DNA from: Sandaracinus amylolyticus
GTDB lineage: Bacteria; Myxococcota_A; Polyangia; Polyangiales; Sandaracinaceae
Assembly (NCBI RefSeq): GCF_021631985.1
Contig: NZ_CP070225.1
Span: 6,076,001 to 6,140,000 of the forward strand
Direction: 5' to 3'
Length of the DNA: 64,000 nucleotides
Under the pieces are notes generated by a model. That model was given only the letters and a program-made list of their open reading frames with translations. It did no database searches and had not been told where the DNA came from. This document shows, one piece after another, positions 42,453 through 54,411 of the stretch (within the stretch, counting starts at the first letter, position 1; the number at the start of each line of letters is the position of its first letter). Position numbers and translations under genes: made by a program.

Positions 42453-43979
42453 GTGCGACCGCTCTTCTTCGCATCCGCGCCGCTCTTCTTCCTCGTGACG
42501 ATCGCGTGCGGCGAGAGCCCAGCCGCATCGGAGCCCGATGCCGGCACCGACGCGAGCGCGGCCGACGCGAGCCTCGCCGACGCGCCGAGCACCTGCGCGT
42601 CCGACGACGCGTGCGACGACGACACGTGGTGCAACGGCACCGAGCGGTGCGCGCCGAGCACGCCGGGCGCCGACGCGCGCGGCTGCGTGACCGGCGACGC
42701 GCCGTGCGCGGCCGACAGCTGCGACGAGAGCGCCGACCGCTGCGACGCGTGCGACGCGGACGGCGACGGCAGCGAGGCGATGGGCTGCGGCGGCGACGAC
42801 TGCGACGACGACGATCGCCAGTGCTTCCCCGGCAACACCGAGGTCTGCGACGCCGAGGCGCACGACGAGGACTGCCGGCAGGACACGTTCGGCGAGCTCG
42901 ACCGCGATCGCGACGGCTGGTTCGCGGCGACGTGCTGCAACGTCAGCGGCGAGGGCGTGCGCACCTGCGGCGACGACTGCGCGGACGACGATCCCGAGGT
43001 GCACCCGACCGAGGCCGAGATGTGCAATCGCCGCGACGACGACTGCGACGGGGGCGTCGACGAGCGCGCGTGCGAGGTGCCGGTCGCGGTCTCGTCGGAC
43101 TCGGGCCACGCGTGCGCGGTGAGCGCGCTCGGGACGGTGTGGTGCTGGGGCCGCAACAACTACGGTCAGCTCGGCGACGGCACGCAGACCGACCGCAGCG
43201 CCGCGGTCTCGGTCGCGGGGCTCACCGGCGTGGTCGAGCTCGACCTCGACGGCATCGGCTACACGTGCGCGCGCACGTCGGGCGGCGACGTGCACTGCTG
43301 GGGCGGCGACGACACCTGCGGCAACACCGAGCCGGTCGCGGTGATGACCGGCACCGACGTCGTCGACATCGACATGTTCTATTACGAGATGTGCGCAGTG
43401 CGCCGCGACGGCAGCACGGCGTGCGTCTCGTTCGACTACGACTGCGCGACGAGCACGACGACGCGCTGCGGGGCCGCGCCCAGCGACGCGGTGCAGGTCG
43501 CGGTCGGCGCGGACTTCTGTTGCTGGCGGCGGCGCAGCGGCGCGGTGCAGTGCGTCGGCAGCAACACGTACGGACAGCTCGGCGACGGGAGCATCACCGA
43601 CGCAGTCGATCTCGACGCGGGCGCGGTCTCGGCGTGCGCGGTGCGCGGCAACGGCACGGTCGTGTGCTGGGGCGACAACGAGTACGACCAGCTCGGCCGC
43701 GGCGCGGGCGCGCCGGCGATGAGCGCGAGCCCCGCAGCGGTCGCGACGATCACGAGCGGCGCGACGCAGGTGTCGGTGCGATCGCAGGACGCGTGCGCGC
43801 TGGTCGGCGGCGAGGTTCGGTGCTGGGGTCGCGACTTCGGCGGGACGCCCGAGGTGATCGTCGACGCGGACGCGACGCAGATCTCGGCGGGCACCGGCGA
43901 GTCGTGCGCGGTGATCGGCGAGGGCGTGTACTGCTGGAGCGAAGCCGGCACGCCCAGGCGCGTCAGCGGGATCCCCTGA
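42453..43979 (+). CDS. Secreted lipoprotein with Cys-rich and RCC1-like repeats
   Basis: 508 residues from a GTG (VRPLFFASAPLFFLVTIACG, lipobox IAC). The N-terminal mature part is a Cys/Asp-rich MopE-like region (CASDDACDDDTWCNGTERC, GCGGDDCDDDDRQCFPGN, NRRDDDCDGGVDERAC), likely calcium-binding and disulfide-rich. From residue ~210 there are RCC1-type propeller blades: ACAVSALGTVWCWGRNNYG, QLGDGTQTDRSAAV, VHCWGGDD, VQCVGSNTYGQLGDG, VVCWGDNEYDQLGRG, VRCWGRDFGG. Myxobacteria carry many such surface proteins; none has a clear role. The gene ends at a shared terminator. Confidence 0.9.
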   Translation: MRPLFFASAPLFFLVTIACGESPAASEPDAGTDASAADASLADAPSTCASDDACDDDTWCNGTERCAPSTPGADARGCVTGDAPCAADSCDESADRCDACDADGDGSEAMGCGGDDCDDDDRQCFPGNTEVCDAEAHDEDCRQDTFGELDRDRDGWFAATCCNVSGEGVRTCGDDCADDDPEVHPTEAEMCNRRDDDCDGGVDERACEVPVAVSSDSGHACAVSALGTVWCWGRNNYGQLGDGTQTDRSAAVSVAGLTGVVELDLDGIGYTCARTSGGDVHCWGGDDTCGNTEPVAVMTGTDVVDIDMFYYEMCAVRRDGSTACVSFDYDCATSTTTRCGAAPSDAVQVAVGADFCCWRRRSGAVQCVGSNTYGQLGDGSITDAVDLDAGAVSACAVRGNGTVVCWGDNEYDQLGRGAGAPAMSASPAAVATITSGATQVSVRSQDACALVGGEVRCWGRDFGGTPEVIVDADATQISAGTGESCAVIGEGVYCWSEAGTPRRVSGIP

Positions 43980-44024: not shown

Positions 44025-44285
44025 TCACGCCACGCGGGTGCGCGCGATCAGGCGATCCACCAGACCGCAGATCCCGGCGAGCGTCCGGAAGCTCTCGGGC
44101 ACGATGTCCTCGTCGCGGACCTCGATGTCGAACGCCTGCTCGAGATAGCGGATCAGGTGCACGATCGAGAGCGAGTCGAGGATGCCCGCCTCGATGAGAT
44201 CGTCGTTCGGTCCGATCGTGCCGCGCGCGCGACCACGCCCGAGGTCGCTCAGCACGTAGCGCTCGATGCGCTCGCTGTTCTTCAC
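44025..44285 (-). CDS. Stand-alone peptidyl/acyl carrier protein (PltL-like)
   Basis: 86 residues from a GTG that overlaps the stop of the adenylation gene (GTGA), with AGGAGG seven bases upstream. Phosphopantetheine Ser is in EAGILDSLSIVHLIRYLE (Ser about 38), followed by a typical carrier helix III (RTLAGICGLVDRLI). Free carrier proteins of 80-90 residues next to a proline-type adenylation enzyme and an acyl-CoA dehydrogenase are the PltL/RedO/CloN5 type. The prolyl group is loaded on the carrier and oxidised to pyrrole-2-carboxyl. It needs a phosphopantetheinyl transferase, not present in the window. Confidence 0.9.
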   Translation of the reverse strand: MKNSERIERYVLSDLGRGRARGTIGPNDDLIEAGILDSLSIVHLIRYLEQAFDIEVRDEDIVPESFRTLAGICGLVDRLIARTRVA

Positions 44286-45907
44286 TCTGCAGCCTCCTCT
44301 CGTGCCGCGACGCTCTCGAGGAGCGCGCGGCGGTCGGTCTTGCCGCTCGACGTGAGCGGGAGCTCGGCGACGATCTCGATCGACTCGGGCAGCATGTAGC
44401 GAGGCAGACGCTCGGCGCAGAACTGCTCGAGATCGCCGGGCGAGGGCGGCGCGACGCCGTCCGCGAGCACCACGAACGCGCGGATCAGGTGGCCGACGAT
44501 CGGATCGGGCACCGGCACCGCGGCCGCGAGCGACACCGCGGGGTGCGCTCCGAGCGTGGTCTCGATCTCGCCGAGCTCGACGCGGTAGCCGCGCGTCTTC
44601 ACGAGGTGATCGTTGCGCCCGAGGAACTCGTAGGTGCCGCCCTCCTCGATGCGCACGCGATCGCCGGTGCGGTACGCGAGCTCGAGCACGCCCTGGTGCA
44701 GCGGGCTCGGCACGAACGCGCGCGCGGTCTTCTCGGCGTCTCCGAAGTAGCCGCGCGCGAGGCACGCGCCGCGCACCCAGAGCTCGCCGACCGCGCCCGT
44801 CGCGGTGACCTGCGCGCCGTCCTCGTCGATGACGAACGTGTCGACGTTCTCGATCGGACCGCCGATCGACACCGGCTTGTCGCGGGTGCGCGCGTCCTCG
44901 CGATCGACCTCGTGGTAGGTGCAGACGTTCGTCTCGGTCGGCCCGTAGAGGTTGTAGAAACGCGCCTTCGGCGCGTGCTCGAGCCACGCGCGCAGGTACT
45001 TCGGCGCGAACACCTCGCCCGCGAAGAGCACGGTGCGCAGCGCGCTCAGATCGCGCTTCGTGAGCTCGCCGTGCTCCGCCATCATCGAGAGCGCGGAGGG
45101 CACGAGGTACGTGACGGTGATGCGCTCGCGCTCGATGAGCTCGGCGAAGCGCACCGGGAACGTCGACGTGCCCTCGGGGACGATCACGATCGTCGCGCCC
45201 GCCGCGACGCTCGAGAACACATCGAACGTCGAGAGATCGAAGTGCAGCGGCGCGTGGCTCGTGACGCGATCGCCGTGCACGAGCTCGAAGCGGCGCGCGG
45301 CCCACGACACGAAGCACGTGCTCGCGCGGTGATCGATCGCGACGCCCTTCGGCACACCGGTCGAGCCCGACGTGTAGAGGATGTATGCGAGATCGGTGTC
45401 GACCCCGACGAGCGCGGGTGCACGCTCGGGATCGCTCGTCGCGGCGTCCCATCCGACCAGGCGCGGTCCACCGCGCGCGGTGCGCTGCGCCGCCATCGGC
45501 CCGCTCTCGTCGAGGAGGATCACCGCCTCGATGCCGCGCAGATGTCCCTGCGCGCTCAGCTCGTCGAGCCGCACGCGCGACGTGACGAGCACGCGGATCC
45601 CCGCGTTCTCGATCGCGTACGAGACGCGGGCCGGAGGCGCGCCGGGATCGAGCGGCACGTACGCGGCGCCCGCGCGGAGCACGCCGAACACCGCGGCGAG
45701 CGTGCGCGAGGTCTTCTTGGCGTGGATGCCGACGCGATCGCCGCGCTTCACGCCGAGCGCACGCAGCGTGCCCGCGATGGCCGCGCTCCACGCCGCGAGC
45801 GTGCGGTAGTCGGTCGTGTCCTTTCCTTCGCGGATCGCCGGATGGTCGGGACGCGCTGCCGCGGTTCGTTCGAGCATCGCGTGCAGGAGGAACGTCATCG
45901 TCGTCAC
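44282..45907 (-). CDS. Stand-alone adenylation enzyme, probable L-prolyl-AMP ligase (PltF-like)
   Basis: 541 residues from a GTG overlapping the previous stop; an ATG at 45898 is the alternative. Core motifs: A3 LAYILYTSGSTGVPKGVAI, A5 NLYGPTETNVCTYHE, A7 YRTGDRVRIEEGG, A8 KTRGYRVELGEIETTLGA and A10 SSGKTDRRAL. Reading the ten specificity positions by alignment to GrsA gives D-L-F-Y-L-A-L-V-C-K (D in HFDLSTFDV, Y in ITVTYLVPS, L/A in TVLFAGE, L/V/C in the A5 motif). From memory the proline code of PltF/RedM/CloN4 enzymes is D-L-L-Y-L-A-L-V-C-K, one difference. So it should activate L-proline and load it onto the adjacent carrier protein. Confidence 0.9.
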   Translation of the reverse strand: MTTMTFLLHAMLERTAAARPDHPAIREGKDTTDYRTLAAWSAAIAGTLRALGVKRGDRVGIHAKKTSRTLAAVFGVLRAGAAYVPLDPGAPPARVSYAIENAGIRVLVTSRVRLDELSAQGHLRGIEAVILLDESGPMAAQRTARGGPRLVGWDAATSDPERAPALVGVDTDLAYILYTSGSTGVPKGVAIDHRASTCFVSWAARRFELVHGDRVTSHAPLHFDLSTFDVFSSVAAGATIVIVPEGTSTFPVRFAELIERERITVTYLVPSALSMMAEHGELTKRDLSALRTVLFAGEVFAPKYLRAWLEHAPKARFYNLYGPTETNVCTYHEVDREDARTRDKPVSIGGPIENVDTFVIDEDGAQVTATGAVGELWVRGACLARGYFGDAEKTARAFVPSPLHQGVLELAYRTGDRVRIEEGGTYEFLGRNDHLVKTRGYRVELGEIETTLGAHPAVSLAAAVPVPDPIVGHLIRAFVVLADGVAPPSPGDLEQFCAERLPRYMLPESIEIVAELPLTSSGKTDRRALLESVAAREEAAE

Positions 45908-47043
45908 CCCACTCCCAGCGATCGCGCGATCGCGCTGCGCTGGATCTCGTTGGTCCCCGAAGCGATGCGAAGCCCGATCGCGTCGCGTAGATCTGCGTGG
46001 ACGCCGAGCTCGGTCGCGTAGCCAGCCGCGCCGTGGAGCTGGATCGCGTCGAGCGACGACTGCACGTAGCTCTCGCTCACGTGCAGCTTCACCAGGGCCG
46101 CATCGAGCGTCGCGTCGGCGCCGCTCGCCATCGTGCGCGCGAATCGATGCAGCAGCAGGCGCGCCGTCTCGAGCCGCAGCTTCATGTCGGCGATGCGGTG
46201 CGAGACCGCCTGGAACGCCCCGATCGGACCGCCGAATTGCTTGCGCTCGTTCGCGTGCTCCACGCACGCATCGAGCTGGCGCTTCATCGCGCCGACGAAG
46301 GGCGCAGCGAGCGCGCCTCGCTCGTACGTGAGCGCGTGCTCGAAGATCTCGGCCCCGCGGCCCCAGCGACCGAGGATCGCGCTCTTCGGCACCTCGCAGC
46401 CGTCGAGCACCACCTCGGCCATCGGGCTCTCGTCGAGACCGAGCTTCGGCGTGCGCGCCTCGACGATCAGCCCGGGCGTGTCGCGCTCGACGAGGAACGC
46501 GGCGGTGCGCACGAACGCGCCGCCCGCCTCGCCCACCGTCGCGAGCACGATGAAGACGTCGGCGATCGGCGCGTTGGTGATCCACGCCTTGCGCCCGTGG
46601 ATCACCACGCGTCCGTCGCGCTCCTCGGCGCGCGTTCGCATCGAGAAGAGATCCGAGCCCGCGCCCGGCTCGCTCAGCGCGATCGCACCGACGAGCTCAC
46701 CGCTGCACAGACGGCGGAGGATCGCGTCCTTCTGCGCGTCGCTGCCGAACGCGAGGATCGGCATCTGCACCGCCCAGACCTGCGCGCCCAGCGAGAACGC
46801 GGTGCCGCCGTCGATGCCCGCTTCACCGAGCGCCTCGAGCGCCGCGACCGCCGCGACGATGCCCGCGCCGTTGCCCCCGTGCGCCTCGGGGATCGGCATG
46901 CCGAGCACCCCGAGCGCACCGAGCTCGCGCATCGTCGCGCGCAGCTCTCGGACCTCGCGACGATCGCGGCGGAACATCCGTCGCGCGACGTCCATCACGT
47001 GAGCTCGGACCGCGCGCGTCTCCTCGTCCCACTCGAAGTCCAT
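45904..47043 (-). CDS. Acyl-CoA dehydrogenase family flavoenzyme, probable prolyl-carrier protein dehydrogenase (PltE-like)
   Basis: 379 residues from MDFEWDEETRAVRAHVMDVA. FAD/substrate motifs are ALSEPGAGSDLFSMRTRAE, GRKAWITNAPIADVFIV, YERGALAAPFVGAMKRQLD, ERKQFGGPIGAFQAVSHRIA, IQLHGAAGYATELGV and GTNEIQRSAIARSLGVG. On its own it would be a generic acyl-CoA dehydrogenase. Its position, overlapping the adenylation gene and two genes from the carrier protein, plus its size (PltE is about 380), suggest it oxidises carrier-bound proline to the pyrrole. GGAGG-like sequence is not obvious before the ATG. A 107-bp gap separates it from the GNAT-like gene upstream. Confidence 0.9.
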   Translation of the reverse strand: MDFEWDEETRAVRAHVMDVARRMFRRDRREVRELRATMRELGALGVLGMPIPEAHGGNGAGIVAAVAALEALGEAGIDGGTAFSLGAQVWAVQMPILAFGSDAQKDAILRRLCSGELVGAIALSEPGAGSDLFSMRTRAEERDGRVVIHGRKAWITNAPIADVFIVLATVGEAGGAFVRTAAFLVERDTPGLIVEARTPKLGLDESPMAEVVLDGCEVPKSAILGRWGRGAEIFEHALTYERGALAAPFVGAMKRQLDACVEHANERKQFGGPIGAFQAVSHRIADMKLRLETARLLLHRFARTMASGADATLDAALVKLHVSESYVQSSLDAIQLHGAAGYATELGVHADLRDAIGLRIASGTNEIQRSAIARSLGVG

Positions 47044-47150
47044 CCCCGCCCGTCCTCTGCACGTCTTCGTGCGTCGTTCGGGCGGTCAGATACTCGCGCG
47101 CGGTGCCCACCGTAGTCCCGGGCCGAGCGGCTCCGATCGCACGCGCGCGA

Positions 47151-48290
47151 TCAGAGACCCATCGGTCCGTGACCGTCCATGTTCGTGAGGAAGATGCGCT
47201 CGCGCGTGTCCTCCCACGGCGAGAGCAATTCGACGAGCGGAGGTGCCGCGCAGAAGTAGCGACCGCGCTCGTAGCGCAGGAAGGCGTTCTCCTCGAACGC
47301 TCGGATCCACCGCGGGTCGCTCTGGTTCGCGATGACGAGCTCGACGCCTGCGCGCTCCAGCCAGTCGTACGCCGCGTGGATGACCTCGCCCGCGTTGCGC
47401 ACCGGCGCGAGCGCGTCGACGATCGTGCCGACGTGGAGATCGCCGAAGCGCGGGTGATTCTCCATCCGTCTCTTGCAGACGACCGCCCAGCCGAGGTCGT
47501 TGCCCTCGCGGTCTCGCACTCGCAGGCGGATCTGCTCCGACCACTCGTAGTGCGCTCCGGTCCGAGGCACGAGCGTGTTCATCGCGCGCGCATCGCGCAC
47601 CGCGATCGCGGCGTAGTCGTGCTTCGCGCGATCCCAGATCGGATCGGCCCACGGACCGAACTCGGGCACGACCTCGGCCTTCGCACCGAAGCTCTTCATC
47701 GACGAGATGCGCAGCGCCGTGGTGAGCGCGCGACCGCCGATCGAGGCGAGCCCGGTGAACGCGAGCGCGTCGAGCGCCATGCGCTTGCGCGGATCGACAC
47801 GCAGCACGCCGTTCTTCCGTGCGAAGTGCGCGGGCCGCACGATGCGGAACATCAGCGGCGTCGCGTAGAGCATCCAGCCGAGCCCCTTGATCAGCTTGAA
47901 GAGCGCGGCGTCCTCGCCGCCGTGGCCCCAGCTGTAGAGGAGCGGACGTTTGCTCACCATGTCGCGGAGCATGCGCAGCCCGAGCGCGCCGTAGCGGTTC
48001 GACACGGCCCCTTCGGAGAACGGCCCCTGCCAATCCGTCACGGTGTGCGACGAGCCGCGCACCCACCACTCTTGAGGCTTCAGCGCGTAGCCGCCGCGCA
48101 CCTCTCTTCCGTCCTCGACGACGAGGTAGTACTCGCGCCAGACGGGCTGCGACGGCTCGCGTTTGGGAAGCCACGGAGGCTCGGGCGCGACGTAGAACCC
48201 GTATCGGGAGCCGCCCGCGCGCATGCGTGCGTTGAAGGACTCGACAGCGTCTTTCCACGACTCGGCGTGAGGCACGATGGAGATGGGCAT
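47151..48290 (-). CDS. GNAT/FemAB-like acyltransferase-fold protein
   Basis: 379 residues from MPISIVPHAESWKDAVESFN, with AGGAGG four bases before the ATG. The layout is a GNAT-type N-terminal half (REYYLVVEDGREVRGGYALK, SNRYGALGLRMLRDMVSK, LLYSWGHGGEDAALFKLI) and a second acyltransferase-like half (RVRDREGNDLGWAVVCKRR, VIHAAYDWLERAGVELVIAN, FEENAFLRYERGRYFC). I have seen this type near polysaccharide and secondary-metabolite genes. Since it is first in the string with the prolyl-carrier genes, it could transfer the pyrrolyl group to an amine or hydroxyl, but that is inference. No membrane segment. Confidence 0.75.
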   Translation of the reverse strand: MPISIVPHAESWKDAVESFNARMRAGGSRYGFYVAPEPPWLPKREPSQPVWREYYLVVEDGREVRGGYALKPQEWWVRGSSHTVTDWQGPFSEGAVSNRYGALGLRMLRDMVSKRPLLYSWGHGGEDAALFKLIKGLGWMLYATPLMFRIVRPAHFARKNGVLRVDPRKRMALDALAFTGLASIGGRALTTALRISSMKSFGAKAEVVPEFGPWADPIWDRAKHDYAAIAVRDARAMNTLVPRTGAHYEWSEQIRLRVRDREGNDLGWAVVCKRRMENHPRFGDLHVGTIVDALAPVRNAGEVIHAAYDWLERAGVELVIANQSDPRWIRAFEENAFLRYERGRYFCAAPPLVELLSPWEDTRERIFLTNMDGHGPMGL

Positions 48291-48447: not shown

Positions 48448-49605
48448 ATGGAGCGAAGGCGACGGATGCGTGCGATCGCGGTGATGCTCGGTGTGCTCGT
48501 GGTGGGATGTGGCGGCGCAGCGACGAGCGCGCGCGAGACGCGCACCGAGCCCACGGTGAGCGAAGCGCCCAGCCCGCCCGAGGAGACGCGCGGCGAGGAG
48601 CGTGAGGAGGCGCGCGCGGCGCCCGCGCCGATCGTGCCGGCGCACGGCCCGCTCGCCGAAGACGATCTCCATCACGGCGTGCTCGCGCGGCTCCGCGACG
48701 CGCCCTTCCCTGCGTGCACCGTCGAGCCGCTGCCGCCGGCGCTCCGCCGCCGCGTGCGAGGCGGCGACGACCTCGCGTCGCTCCGCGCGCGGGTGTCGAT
48801 CGACGTTCCCGACGACGCGATCACGACCGCGCGCGTCGATGCGAGCGAAGGCGTGGTGTATCGATCGGCGGCGCTCGATCCTCGGTCCGACGTGGGCGAT
48901 CTCGGCTATCGCGTGCGGCTGCGCGACGGCACGTCGGGCACCGAAGAGGACCTCGCGCTCGGGCTCACCGCGATGCGCCCGCTGGTGCTCGTCGACAACC
49001 CGATGGTCCGCCTCGTCGACGCGGGCGAGGTCCGGATCGAGGCGGAGCTGCGCGCGATCGACGACGCGTCGATCGAGTTCCGTCCCGCGGACGCGACGAG
49101 CACCACGCGCGACGGCCGCGAGCGCCTGGTGCGCTGCAGGCTCGAGGATCTCCGTCGCGATCAGGACGCCGACGGGCTCACCGATCTCACCGAGCAACGG
49201 CTCCTCACCGACGCATGGGATCCCGACACCGACGGCGACGGAACGCGCGACGGCGACGACGTCTCGCCCCTCGGCAGCGCAGCGCCCTCGAGCGACGCGG
49301 ACGGAGTCTGGCTCGCCGCGGCGCGGGAGATCGCGGGCGACGAGGAAGGGCTGCACGTCGTGGTGCGCTCGGGCGCGCGCCTCGACCTCGGTGCGCGCGG
49401 CGAGGGCGCTGCGCGCGTGCTGGTGCTGCGCGAGGACGAGCTCGCGGCCTACCAGCGTCGCTACGGGCTGCGCGCGCCGGTGGTCATCGCGGTGCGGATG
49501 CGCGGGCGCGATCGCGCGGAGGTGACGATCGATCGCGTGTGGTCGCAGTCGCTGCTCGACGCGCGGCGCGACGCGTCCGGGGTGTGGTCGCTCGTCGCGC
49601 GCTGA
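48448..49605 (+). CDS. Secreted lipoprotein with thrombospondin type 3-like calcium motif
   Basis: 385 residues from MERRRRMRAIAVMLGVLVVGC, GGAGGAG upstream, lipobox VGC. A Glu/Arg/Pro-rich linker follows. The middle is a beta-rich domain (RARVSIDVPDDAITTARVD, DLGYRVRLRDGTSGTEED). A TSP3-like repeat then follows: RRDQDADGLTDLTEQ, WDPDTDGDGTRDGDD, with Asp spacing suited to calcium. The last part (GLHVVVRSGARLDLGARGEG, RRYGLRAPVVIAVRMRG) is unassigned. The gene diverges from the GNAT-like gene across a 157-bp gap. Function unknown. Confidence 0.78.
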   Translation: MERRRRMRAIAVMLGVLVVGCGGAATSARETRTEPTVSEAPSPPEETRGEEREEARAAPAPIVPAHGPLAEDDLHHGVLARLRDAPFPACTVEPLPPALRRRVRGGDDLASLRARVSIDVPDDAITTARVDASEGVVYRSAALDPRSDVGDLGYRVRLRDGTSGTEEDLALGLTAMRPLVLVDNPMVRLVDAGEVRIEAELRAIDDASIEFRPADATSTTRDGRERLVRCRLEDLRRDQDADGLTDLTEQRLLTDAWDPDTDGDGTRDGDDVSPLGSAAPSSDADGVWLAAAREIAGDEEGLHVVVRSGARLDLGARGEGAARVLVLREDELAAYQRRYGLRAPVVIAVRMRGRDRAEVTIDRVWSQSLLDARRDASGVWSLVAR

Positions 49606-50670: not shown

Positions 50671-51486
50671 ATGCGATCGCGATCCGGGCGTGCGATACGC
50701 ACCTGCGTGTCCTCGCCGTATCGCCGCCCCTCGCCGCCCGAGCGAGCCGCAGCACCGGAGATCGACCTCGGGGCTCGCATCGGAGAGCACCGCGCGAAGC
50801 GCGACCCGGCCACGATCGTGGGCGCCGTCGTCCTCCCGGTGATCGCGACGATCGCGGCGCTCCGAGCGCGCGTTCCCATGCGCGCGGTTCCGATCGCGCT
50901 GCTCGTGGGATGCACGCTCGGGCTCGTGCTCTTCGCCGTCCTCCAGATGACGCGACGCCGACCGCACGTCGCGGTGCACGAGGGCGGGATCGTGATCACC
51001 CTGCGCCGCATCGCACGCGCGATCGCGTGGAGCGACGTCGATCGTCTCGTCGTCGGGCCGGAGACGCGACCCGTCTTGTTCGGCGTCGGGATCATCTCGG
51101 GACCGAACGTCCGGCTCACGACGCACGACGGAGCCTCGTTCGAGCTGCGCTCGGACGAGCTGCACGACCTCGAAGGGCTCGCGAATCTGCTCGAGCGTCG
51201 CTGCTCCGATCCGCTCGTCGACGACGCGCGCGACGCGCTCGATGCAGGAGAGACGCTCGACTTCGGTCCGCTGCGAGTGCGGCGCGAAGGCGTCGAGGTC
51301 GGTGGCGCGAGCGCGGCGTGGAGCGAGATCGAGGTCGTGAAGCACGTCGATCGCATCGAGCTGATGCGCGACGGACGCGTGTGGAAGACCGTGCGCTTCG
51401 AGCAGCTCGTGCACCGGCGCGTCGCGCTCGCGATGCTCGCGCGGAGCACGCGCGTGCGCGACGGCGTGCACATCGACCTCACGTGA
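50671..51486 (+). CDS. Membrane protein with PH-like domain (DUF6585-like)
   Basis: 271 residues. An Arg/Pro-rich start precedes two hydrophobic segments near 48-66 (IVGAVVLPVIATIAAL) and 70-92 (AVPIALLVGCTLGLVLFAVL). The cytosolic remainder has a repeated beta pattern (HVAVHEGGIVITLRRIARAI, NVRLTTHDGASFELR, LRVRREGVEVGGASAAWSEI) like pleckstrin-homology-type membrane domains, and resembles DUF6585 proteins. The start may also be the GTG at 50707. No catalytic residues seen. It overlaps the convergent PHP-domain gene by 8 bp. Confidence 0.65.
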   Translation: MRSRSGRAIRTCVSSPYRRPSPPERAAAPEIDLGARIGEHRAKRDPATIVGAVVLPVIATIAALRARVPMRAVPIALLVGCTLGLVLFAVLQMTRRRPHVAVHEGGIVITLRRIARAIAWSDVDRLVVGPETRPVLFGVGIISGPNVRLTTHDGASFELRSDELHDLEGLANLLERRCSDPLVDDARDALDAGETLDFGPLRVRREGVEVGGASAAWSEIEVVKHVDRIELMRDGRVWKTVRFEQLVHRRVALAMLARSTRVRDGVHIDLT

Positions 51487-53083
51487 TCCGCGATCGACGC
51501 CGCACGATCCCGACCCCGATCACGAGCGCGATCAGCGGCCACGCGCGCGAGCCGCTCCCGGTGCTCGTCGCGCGGCACGTGCACCCACCGCCACCCGGCT
51601 CACCGACGGCGCCCGCATCGGGCGCGACGCCCGCATCGGGCCCGCCCGGCGTGCTCGGCCGCACGAAGAGATGGCTCGTAATCACGCGAGGACGCCCGCC
51701 GATCAGCAGCTCGGCGCGCACGAAGTCCTCGCTCGCGCCCGCGACCATCGTCGTCTCGTGCTCGAAGGGATCTCCGACGACCTCGATGTCCTCGCCGGGC
51801 ACACCGCTGCGCACGAGGCGCAGGCTCGCCCCGAGCGCTGCGCCGGTGACGCGCACCCGGAACGTCACGGAGTCGGCGACGATCGTGTCGTCGTCGGGCC
51901 CGAGCTCGGGCGACGAGAGCTCGACCATCGGATCGTCGGGGCCGCCCAGCTTCACGACGGTGCGCCCGCGACGCACGCCCTCGAGGATCGCGGCGACGCT
52001 CAGCTCCTCGGCCCACACCATCGTGGTCGGACTGCCGATCGGGCTGTCGAGGGTCCCGGTGCCCGTGCCCGCGCGATGATCGTCGCTGCCGCCCAGCGCG
52101 ACCACGCGATGCCCCGCCGCGACGAGCCCCTCCCAGCGCATGATCGTGCGCGGCAGGAACAGGCTCGTGGGGCCGAGCGCGCCGGTCTGGATCTCGATCG
52201 CGTCGATCGCCGCACCGTCGAGCGTCGCGCTCCACGCGCACCCGATGCACGCGTCACCGAGGTTCAGCGAGGGATGGTTGATCGAGAAGAGCGCGCCGTC
52301 GTCGCGCACCGCGCCGGCGATCTCCGCCATCGTGATCCCCTCGAAGCCGAGCCGGTGATCGATCCAGGTCGTGCCGCCGAGCGACATCGCGTGGCCCTGG
52401 TACGTCGTGACCTCGATGCCGGGCACCAGCAGCAGCGCGGGGTGCGCCGCCTGGGTCGCCGCGTAGAGCTCGAGCTGGGACGTCGTGTTGTGCTCGCTGA
52501 GCATCACGAAATCGAGATCGATGCTCTCGGCATACATCGCGATCTCGTCGAGCGTGCCCGACGCGTCGCCGCTCTCGCGCGAGTGCACGTGGAAGTCGCC
52601 GGCGTACCAGCGCGCCTCGGTCTCGAGCGCGTCCACCGGCGCATAGGGCGCCCGCTCGGGCTGCGGCGCGAGCGTCGCGGTGTCGCGCAGCACGATCTCG
52701 ATGCGATAGCGCGCAGGCGTCTCGTCGACGCGCGCCTTGCCGACGTAGACGCTCCAGGTGCCGGGCGTGATCGGCCCGGGGAGATAGCTGCGCGACGCCG
52801 CATCGACTCCGACGATCGCGGGCTCGGTGTTCCCTCCGCCGTACCCGCGGAACTCACTGGGATCGAAGAGGCCCCAGTCCAGGATGTTCACGTCCGAGAG
52901 GTCGTCGTGGCGCACCTCGATCTCGACCACGCCCTCGGGCACCTCGAAGGGGATCACGAAGTAGTCGCCCTCGCTCGGCACCTCGCCCTCGATGACCTCT
53001 TGGGCGCGCGCGCGTGGCGCGAAGAGAAGGAACGACAGACCGAGCACGATCGCGATGCGTGACATCGATCGGGAGGATCTCAT
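51479..53083 (-). CDS. Secreted PHP-domain phosphoesterase-like protein with MYXO-CTERM tail
   Basis: 534 residues; the start may also be the ATG at 53065. The signal peptide IAIVLGLSFLLFAPRARA is followed by a beta-sandwich-like domain (~30-165, YFVIPFEVPEGVVEIEV). The PHP domain then has its metal-ligand motifs: GDFHVHSRESGD, MLSEHNTTSQLE, VPGIEVTT, SINHPSL and LGGSDDHRAGT. A further beta-rich part follows. The C-terminus is GCTC-, a short hydrophobic helix (WPLIALVIGVGI) and RRRSR, the MYXO-CTERM sorting signal, so the protein should be processed and placed at the cell surface. PHP proteins of the CehA type hydrolyse phosphoesters or carbamates. Confidence 0.9.
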   Translation of the reverse strand: MRSSRSMSRIAIVLGLSFLLFAPRARAQEVIEGEVPSEGDYFVIPFEVPEGVVEIEVRHDDLSDVNILDWGLFDPSEFRGYGGGNTEPAIVGVDAASRSYLPGPITPGTWSVYVGKARVDETPARYRIEIVLRDTATLAPQPERAPYAPVDALETEARWYAGDFHVHSRESGDASGTLDEIAMYAESIDLDFVMLSEHNTTSQLELYAATQAAHPALLLVPGIEVTTYQGHAMSLGGTTWIDHRLGFEGITMAEIAGAVRDDGALFSINHPSLNLGDACIGCAWSATLDGAAIDAIEIQTGALGPTSLFLPRTIMRWEGLVAAGHRVVALGGSDDHRAGTGTGTLDSPIGSPTTMVWAEELSVAAILEGVRRGRTVVKLGGPDDPMVELSSPELGPDDDTIVADSVTFRVRVTGAALGASLRLVRSGVPGEDIEVVGDPFEHETTMVAGASEDFVRAELLIGGRPRVITSHLFVRPSTPGGPDAGVAPDAGAVGEPGGGGCTCRATSTGSGSRAWPLIALVIGVGIVRRRSRIT

Positions 53084-53133
53084 CTCGCGGTCGCGCGACC
53101 AAACGAACGTGCGGCTACGTGGTCGTCACGACG

Positions 53134-54411
53134 ATGTCGCTGCCCCCCGGATACGACGACATGCTGCGCTTCCCGCTGATCGAGGCGCTGCTGGGACGTC
53201 GCTCCCGACGCTTCTTCCGAGGCGCCGAGCTCCCCGACGGAGTCTTCGCGTTCCGCTCGCGCCACCCACCGATGCCGCTCTCCGAGCTCGAGACGATGCT
53301 CGTCGTCGCGGCGTGCGGCTCCAACACCGGCTGGCACCACCTGATCCGTCGCGCGAAGAGCTACGCGCCCCACCTCTCGAGCTATGCCGGCGCGGCGGGC
53401 GGCCGCACGTTCCCGTCTGCCGCGGGGTTCCACACCAGCAAGACCTTCTTCACCGATGACACCGGCACATATGTGCTCGAAGCACGCGATTCGGGCGCGT
53501 TCGCCGAGCGCGACGAGCACGGCGCGCTCGACCTCGACGCGATCCGCCGCGCGGTCGGCGCGCGCATCCGCCGGCTGAGCGATCGACGCTTGTTCCTCCC
53601 CGCCGAGCCGCCCTTCGTCGAGGCGCACAACACCTGGGTCGCGAACGCGCCGGGCTCGCTGCTCGTCGTCCCGGTGGGCGATCTCTCGCAGCACGTGCTG
53701 CTCGGCCTCGCGTACCTCGCGCAGAACCGCCAGGTCGTCTTCGACGACGTGCACGGTCGCGCGATCCCGGGCATCGAGCGCTTCTCGCGCATCGTCGATC
53801 CCGACGCGTCGTGGCCGATCTCGTTCTTCGAGCAGTGGTGCTTCGCGGAGCTCTCGGTCGAGCTCGGCACCAGCTGCTACGCGGGCGCGCTGATGCTGCA
53901 GGCGATGGGGCTCGGCGGCTGGATGTACGACGGGCTCGATCCCTTCGGCGTGCTCGGCGCGAGCGGGCGCCCCGACGTGCCGGGCCTCGGCTTCCGCTTC
54001 GATCGCGATCCGCGCTGGCCCACGCCGAACCCCACCGGCCTGCCCGGCGTGATGGAGGGCTCGTGCCCGCCCCACCACCGCACGATGCGCGACGCGGTCG
54101 AGGCGATGTGCGAGCGCAAGTTCGGCCCCGGCGGTCCGTTCCATCCCGACACGCCGGGACCGTGGAAGGACTCGCGCCGCGTGCGCAGCGCCGCGATGCC
54201 CTACGACGAGACGTTCCGCGAGTGCGTCGCGCTCCAGGCGCAGTACCTCTTCGACACGTTCGGTCGTTTCCCCGGCACCGTGCCCTCGATGATCTCGGTG
54301 ATGGTGCTGCAGGCCCATCACCTCGACCTCGACTACTACGACCACTTCTACGAGAAGGGCGCGTACCTCGAGACCCACGCTCGCCACGACGAGCGCTGGC
54401 ATCCCCGGTGA
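53134..54411 (+). CDS. Nitroreductase-like protein, function unknown
   Basis: 425 residues from MSLPPGYDDMLRFPLIEALL. The opening LLGRRSRRFFRGAELPDG, then PPMPLSELETMLVVAACGSN, resembles the FMN-binding start of nitroreductases (RRSxRxF). The rest is much longer than a nitroreductase. It has aromatic- and His-rich stretches (GWHHLIRR, GSCPPHHRTMRDAVEAMC, VMVLQAHHLDLDYYDHFYEK) that could bind metal or FMN. No signal peptide. It diverges from the PHP gene with a 50-bp gap. The relation to nitroreductases is by short motif only, so other assignments are open. Confidence 0.6.
   Translation: MSLPPGYDDMLRFPLIEALLGRRSRRFFRGAELPDGVFAFRSRHPPMPLSELETMLVVAACGSNTGWHHLIRRAKSYAPHLSSYAGAAGGRTFPSAAGFHTSKTFFTDDTGTYVLEARDSGAFAERDEHGALDLDAIRRAVGARIRRLSDRRLFLPAEPPFVEAHNTWVANAPGSLLVVPVGDLSQHVLLGLAYLAQNRQVVFDDVHGRAIPGIERFSRIVDPDASWPISFFEQWCFAELSVELGTSCYAGALMLQAMGLGGWMYDGLDPFGVLGASGRPDVPGLGFRFDRDPRWPTPNPTGLPGVMEGSCPPHHRTMRDAVEAMCERKFGPGGPFHPDTPGPWKDSRRVRSAAMPYDETFRECVALQAQYLFDTFGRFPGTVPSMISVMVLQAHHLDLDYYDHFYEKGAYLETHARHDERWHPR

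Follow-up and report, generated by a model that had tools for sequence, protein, structure and literature searches.

Cassettes that turn proline into a pyrrole on a carrier protein are known from antibiotic pathways, and the supply of starter units to polyketide synthases (PKS) and non-ribosomal peptide synthetases (NRPS) is their textbook role. Two dehydrogenases of this kind, Bmp3 and AnaB, feed bromopyrroles and anatoxin. The pyoluteorin (PltL/PltF/PltE) and undecylprodigiosin (RedO/RedM/RedW) cassettes each comprise a discrete carrier protein, a proline adenylation enzyme and a dehydrogenase dependent on flavin adenine dinucleotide (FAD). PltE and RedW are named in PMC10849742. A cassette of the same kind was analysed at positions 44025-48290 of the window, the 64,000-nucleotide stretch of Sandaracinus amylolyticus DNA under study (G000:C1:6076001-6140000; the host genome, G000, consists of two contigs of 10,754,065 and 209,732 bp). 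In transcription order on the minus strand, it consists of a tandem-GNAT gene, an acyl-CoA-dehydrogenase-like gene (CoA, coenzyme A), an adenylation gene and a carrier-protein gene.

The last three genes agree with the Plt and Red cassettes in composition and size, the adenylation pocket is one residue from that of PltF and the catalytic Glu of the dehydrogenase is kept. In contrast to those cassettes, no PKS or NRPS genes adjoin, a tandem-GNAT gene heads the operon and the dehydrogenase scores far under the curated cut-off of RedW. The Dlt system (DltA/DltC/DltB/DltD) is similar in that a stand-alone adenylation enzyme loads an amino acid on a small carrier protein with no assembly line, whereas the window holds an oxidase and a GNAT and no MBOAT or SGNH gene was seen there. 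The chemistry up to the pyrrolyl group on the peptidyl carrier protein (pyrrolyl-PCP) is already known, but the pairing with a tandem-GNAT appears to be new. Among the open-licence papers listed, judged by title and abstract start, none was found to describe a tandem-GNAT at the head of a prolyl-to-pyrrolyl cassette, or the pairing of this GNAT family with carrier-protein oxidase cassettes.

Probable activation and oxidation of proline

The stand-alone peptidyl carrier protein (44025-44285, minus strand) has 86 amino acids (aa) from a GTG start, with the phosphopantetheine Ser38 within GILDSLS (DSL motif) and a PF00550 score of 36.9 bits against a cut-off of 20.8. Its gene overlaps by 4 nucleotides (nt) with that of the stand-alone PltF-type adenylation enzyme (44282-45907, minus strand; PF00501/PF13193), which yields 541 aa from the GTG at 45907 or 538 aa from the ATG at 45898. 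Given the GTG start, a second 4-nt overlap joins it to the gene of the acyl-CoA-dehydrogenase-fold prolyl-carrier-protein dehydrogenase (45904-47043, minus strand, 379 aa). Pfam matches over cut-off in the loading genes were PP-binding, AMP-binding with AMP-binding_C, and three Acyl-CoA_dh domains. Carrier protein, adenylation enzyme and acyl-CoA-dehydrogenase-fold oxidase are three discrete proteins, as in thiotemplated pyrrole-2-carbonyl-PCP cassettes of the Plt/Red/Bmp/Ana type. The original prediction, made from the letters of the DNA, had described an overlapping minus-strand string of 86, 541 and 379 aa; its coordinates, sizes and domains were right, the dehydrogenase overlap depending on the GTG start.

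Among single-domain proteins of solved structure, the best match to the adenylation enzyme in a single-sequence search was 6o6e, listed as L-proline carrier-protein ligase, which we take to be PltF; multidomain proteins outranked it by summed scores. With a profile of nine relatives, PltF reached 560 bits, compared with 383 for AnaC and 380 for tyrocidine synthase, which follows among chains matched in a single stretch. Alignment of the pocket region gave 158.6 bits for PltF versus 130.2 for the next chain, the latter being the sum of two stretches. The ten pocket residues of the window enzyme read DLFYLALVCK. In 6o6e nine positions are readable, DLLYLALVC(K), and the sole difference is at position 3, where L in PltF is F in the window; the single change from the proline code that had been claimed was therefore confirmed against a solved structure. 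Among 11 PltF-type adenylation domains, position 3 was F in five (the window and loci L026, L081, L085 and L086) and L in six, in a set that left out adenylation matches with fewer than 380 aligned residues (e.g. L083) as well as L127/L128. On this comparison, the F/L exchange appears to be natural variation. The enzyme falls within the PltF group and has a proline-like pocket.

Among NCBIfam models, RedW scored best for the dehydrogenase at 390.0 bits, followed by PigA at 368.6, and no further family exceeded 216.5. Identity was 43.2% to 5zw0, 40.0% to Bmp3 and 38.3% to AnaB (4irn, listed as prolyl-ACP (acyl carrier protein) dehydrogenase and presumably AnaB); for the last two the similarity extends over the full length, and the downstream genes differ. 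A 23-row maximum-likelihood tree placed the dehydrogenase in a 17-row set with these three characterised or solved proteins (support 95/95), apart from four relatives that have no PltF-type neighbour. The oxidase thus groups with characterised prolyl-carrier dehydrogenases. In the alignment, AnaB, Bmp3 and 5zw0 likewise have Glu at the position of its Glu241, whereas the variant chain 6af6 has Ala there. The same position was Glu in 13 and Asp in three (L088-L090) of 16 aligned relatives, and the catalytic Glu of the pyrrole-forming members is kept in the window protein. According to PMC10849742, where Bmp3 is 6cxt, AnaB and Bmp3 cannot do without this Glu and the N-oxygenase ChmG is distinguished by having lost it, so that the residue separates pyrrole formation from N-oxygenation in the acyl-CoA-dehydrogenase fold.

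The formation of pyrrolyl-PCP by activation and oxidation of proline is, from this strong homology, well supported and very probable. The likeness to PltL/PltF/PltE, also part of the original prediction, is borne out by the Pfam domains, by PltF as the nearest relative, by the dehydrogenase tree and by Glu241.

Two other assignments were tried and rejected. An ordinary fatty acyl-CoA dehydrogenase acting with a CoA ligase was dismissed because the adenylation gene is closer to enzymes that adenylate amino acids (TIGR01733, 398 bits against a cut-off of 317.4), and also since generic acyl-CoA dehydrogenase families score far under the prolyl ones. A ChmG-like N-oxygenase was set aside, since Glu241 is present.

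The tandem-GNAT protein and its family

The gene at the head of the string (47151-48290, minus strand) is located 107 nt upstream of the dehydrogenase gene on the same strand. It starts with an ATG after AGGAGGG and encodes 379 aa with a C-terminal DGHGP. No Pfam or NCBIfam match was found at E 0.001 in a run on the 467-aa open reading frame (ORF) containing the gene, and a sequence search of solved chains gave no convincing match (best E 0.0024). An AlphaFold2 model from a 19-sequence alignment reached a predicted local distance difference test score of 90.6. Using Foldseek and VIA-align 2, N-myristoyltransferases (4cav, 2nmt) were found to match the model near full length (Z 19.1, 4.9 A, 317 residues), and other tandem GNATs, 2wpx and 2hv2, were present in the Foldseek list. 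The predicted model has two GNAT domains in the N-myristoyltransferase arrangement, a fold that makes the product, by prediction, a tandem-GNAT acyltransferase of an unnamed family. In contrast to this structural likeness, the sequence identity is only 8-10%, and neither Pfam nor NCBIfam yielded a family assignment at the threshold given above. The C-terminus is strongly conserved: DGHGP and a few further residues occurred in every row of two alignments, with the exception of L036, which has DGDGP. N-myristoyltransferase uses its C-terminal carboxylate as catalytic base, and by this analogy a role for the DGHGP tail is a fair guess.

The family was detected by whole-genome search in nine of 144 genomes of the order and in nine of 282 of the phylum (one match weak and partial). 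A contig scan yielded 19 GNAT loci, some of them from Burkholderiales (Rhizobacter, Methylibium, Aquincola) and Pseudomonadales. Gene neighbourhoods were compared at 29 loci for which the GNAT was the only selection criterion, among them several short contigs and three pairs from the host and G012, a genome of the same genus. Ten loci on duplicate contigs, recognised by their equal lengths (L094-L098, L101, L104, L110-L112), and the weak match of G320 (L093; 32% over part) were excluded, and short loci were replaced by longer versions. At most loci the AurF-like and other labels were assigned by BLAST, with a single Pfam-tested representative for each label (PF11583 in the AurF-like case), and a few were given by eye.

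Within 6 kb of the GNAT, an adenylation domain was present at 23 of the 29 loci, a carrier protein at 21, an AurF-like oxygenase at 19 and a prolyl dehydrogenase at three (the window, L026 and L074). At the 19 loci where each flank extends for 6 kb or more, the corresponding counts were 16, 14, 12 and 3. As background, the stretches no further than 6 kb from an adenylation domain make up 3.1% of the host chromosome. Six loci had no adenylation domain at this distance, namely L024, L027, L034 (AurF present), L029, L033 and L037; at the last three the flank is cut by the contig end. At least two kinds of surface-polysaccharide genes were neighbours at 18 of the 29 loci (flippase, dTDP-rhamnose genes, glycosyltransferases, polysaccharide deacetylase, asparagine-synthase-like, WecG, carbamoyltransferase). 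Most adenylation enzymes linked to AurF had one other, fixed code, DLFFLCLICK.

The host genome has three copies of the GNAT: that of the window, L025 in an AurF cassette and L024 in a loader-less polysaccharide locus. In the GNAT tree, the window copy was placed in a Sandaracinus group together with the loader-less polysaccharide copies, and L074 (= L110) in another group, adjoining the AurF-type locus L105. L074 also differs from the window in its dehydrogenase branch. From these placements, the GNAT and prolyl-cassette pairings of the window and of L074 appear to have arisen separately, which counts for a functional link.

A recurring four-gene set of tandem-GNAT, AurF-like diiron oxygenase, carrier protein and adenylation enzyme was observed at L025 (6565-10851), L028, L031 and L032, and at L076, L077, L099, L100, L102, L103 and L105-L109. 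These sets occur in Myxococcota, Burkholderiales and Pseudomonadales, and surface-polysaccharide genes often adjoin them. A second adenylation type, with the codes DNFFLAMVCK and DNFFIAMVCK, was found at L075 (10678-14413) and L078 (4729-8516), where its partners are AurF, a carrier protein and another oxidoreductase, predicted and by eye of FAD type, the GNAT family being nearby.

Proposed route and alternative explanations

In the proposed route, the adenylation enzyme would activate L-proline on its dedicated carrier protein and the FAD dehydrogenase, with Glu241 as base, would oxidise the bound prolyl group to pyrrole-2-carbonyl. The tandem-GNAT would then move this group from the carrier to an amine, giving a pyrrole-2-carboxamide. 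As read from sequence, the whole scheme of loading, oxidation on the carrier and N-acylation has about an even chance of being correct. The fold, the gene order in the operon and the repeated association of the family with adenylation, carrier and oxidase cassettes point to the hand-off to the GNAT, which could in itself equally prove right or wrong. The original prediction had already made the GNAT-like gene a transferase; the GNAT fold and the family pairing now speak for that proposal and the gene is more than a bystander, but as to its activity we would say only that it may be a transferase. Acyl carrier proteins serve as donors to other enzymes of the GNAT fold, such as LuxI-type enzymes, FeeM and OlsB.

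At most loci of the family, by a parallel route, an amino acid would be loaded on the carrier and oxidised by the AurF-like enzyme, with the GNAT adjoining; in the window the prolyl dehydrogenase would take the place of the AurF-like oxidase. Because the family usually sits among surface-polysaccharide genes, a tentative first guess at the acceptor would be a surface-glycan amino sugar. For the same reason, a small molecule of the kind first proposed is no more likely to be the product than a decorated glycan. An extended version is speculative and rather doubtful: the family would consist of carrier-protein-dependent N-acyltransferases that decorate surface-glycan amines with carrier-oxidised amino acids, AurF being the standard oxidase, and Sandaracinus would have swapped in a prolyl dehydrogenase to give pyrrole-2-carboxamide surfaces.

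Several observations weigh against the route. GNATs normally use acyl-CoA. The nearest paralogues (66-67%; L024/L027) are found in polysaccharide loci with no adenylation gene within 9 kb, and another genome of the genus (G030) has the GNAT with neither prolyl dehydrogenase nor adenylation gene at the limits used; the family therefore does not need pyrrolyl-PCP. A further Sandaracinaceae genome (G002; L127 1281-5453) has a prolyl cassette, with a methyltransferase gene between the carrier-protein and dehydrogenase genes and no GNAT adjoining, so such cassettes also work without one. At L074 the steady partner of the cassette is an MBOAT-like/SGNH protein, and the GNAT may be only a neighbour there. 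The window cassette is outside any polysaccharide locus, so that the acceptor cannot be read from the neighbouring genes. The dehydrogenase scores are under the curated cut-offs of 650 (RedW, NF045652) and 500 (PigA), and for this reason the protein is not filed as an equivalog of either; the dehydrogenase of L074, a distant relative in a clear cassette, is also under both (RedW 434, PigA 451). The window dehydrogenase has a long branch, and its position inside the 17-row set was not resolved by the tree. Finally, a possible promoter or leader in the conserved gap upstream of the dehydrogenase gene could uncouple the three loading genes from the GNAT.

Alternatively, pyrrolyl-PCP could be delivered in trans as a starter unit to a PKS or NRPS encoded at another genomic site, with the GNAT as a mere neighbour. 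This would be the textbook role; the host does carry PKS/NRPS genes, also on the second contig, and the conserved gap separates the GNAT from the loading genes. The window itself, however, has no second adenylation domain, its sole AMP-binding match (of 34 genome-wide) being the cassette gene, and no ketoacyl-synthase match (21 genome-wide, the nearest on the chromosome more than 800 kb off), in line with the earlier statement that PKS/NRPS genes are missing here. In addition, the GNAT family pairs with adenylation genes far above the background given above, and in-trans supply is considered unlikely. That the loading enzymes act on a proline analogue, such as pipecolate or a methylproline, or that oxidation stops at the pyrroline, is distinctly improbable. 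The pocket difference from PltF and the divergent, long-branched dehydrogenase with scores under the curated cut-offs would fit this, but position 3 of the pocket varies freely, Glu241 is kept and the same pocket is found at L085, at a locus with a halogenase-type flavoprotein (by eye).

The product could also be free pyrrole-2-carboxylate or an ester, made by a hydrolase or a Dlt-like membrane O-acyltransferase, while the GNAT does something else. Such an outcome would be in agreement with three cassettes of carrier protein, adenylation enzyme and prolyl dehydrogenase that adjoin an MBOAT-like/SGNH protein (L074 9579-15073; L082 6686-12292; L080 4936-10351, where that protein is split over two frames). 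The protein occurs in the cassette-bearing genomes G185, G197, G295 and G180 and has 848 aa at L074, with an SGNH domain (weak PF13472, under cut-off) and an MBOAT-like membrane part. When profiles were compared, it resembled a true MBOAT only weakly (probability 3.9%, E 0.011), and the label rests on a motif alignment and weak genome matches to MBOAT-like ORFs. A Dlt-like system carrying a pyrrole group is possible at these loci. For the free acid there is a precedent in the hydrolase ChmF, which, according to PMC10849742, releases the pyrrole acid in chalkophomycin biosynthesis. On the other side, there is no hydrolase gene within the window cassette, no MBOAT/SGNH partner was seen by eye among the window gene calls, and the MBOAT-like/SGNH profile gave, in both Sandaracinus genomes, only one weak, distant match, to an ordinary MBOAT-like ORF of G000. 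Release as acid or ester is judged improbable at this locus.

If the GNAT-dependent route is true, the pyrrole-making step of antibiotics also serves outside assembly lines. An unnamed acyltransferase family would gain a testable role, the removal of oxidised aminoacyl groups from carrier proteins, and the AurF/carrier/adenylation/GNAT cassettes of the three bacterial groups named above would represent unexplored surface or metabolite modifications.

Related cassettes and genomic setting

The view that a pyrrolyl starter normally feeds a polyketide or aminocoumarin pathway turned out to be too narrow, since cassettes of the phylum also adjoin the MBOAT-like/SGNH protein, a flavoprotein that by eye is of halogenase type, or a methyltransferase. 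At L085 (5244-10758), an adenylation enzyme with a pocket code identical to that of the window is accompanied by a carrier protein, a prolyl dehydrogenase and a flavoprotein resembling a halogenase (by eye), as in chloropyrrole pathways. This is likely a halopyrrole locus.

All four genes of the window occur in identical order in G012, with proteins 92-94% identical, and comparison of the two genomes indicated purifying selection on each (dN/dS 0.145-0.211). Among ten genomes of the family, the adenylation gene was detected at E 1e-70 in the host and G012 only. An empty insertion site could not be demonstrated, as the flanking transporter gene was present in two of the ten (two Sandaracinus species; E 1e-100). 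The plus-strand genes on either side, 42453-43979 and 48466-49605, converge on and diverge from the cassette, respectively, and appear unrelated to it.

The 107-nt gap between the GNAT-like and dehydrogenase genes (47044-47150, minus strand), a possible leader or promoter, was 97.2% identical to that of G012 (1 mismatch, 2 gaps). For comparison, the identities to G012 were 91.8-94.3% for the four genes and 55.6-85.1% for five other intergenic stretches. The predicted fold pairs bases immediately upstream of the dehydrogenase start, with a z of -1.5, and 18 of 200 shuffles were at least as stable. Neither an Rfam match nor a promoter-like or terminator-like match was found in the gap; a known structured RNA was rejected on the lack of an Rfam match and the fold z value. 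Another intergenic stretch of the window, 53066-53118, between the genes 51479-53065 and 53119-54411, was 98.1% identical to G012, with 1 mismatch in 53.

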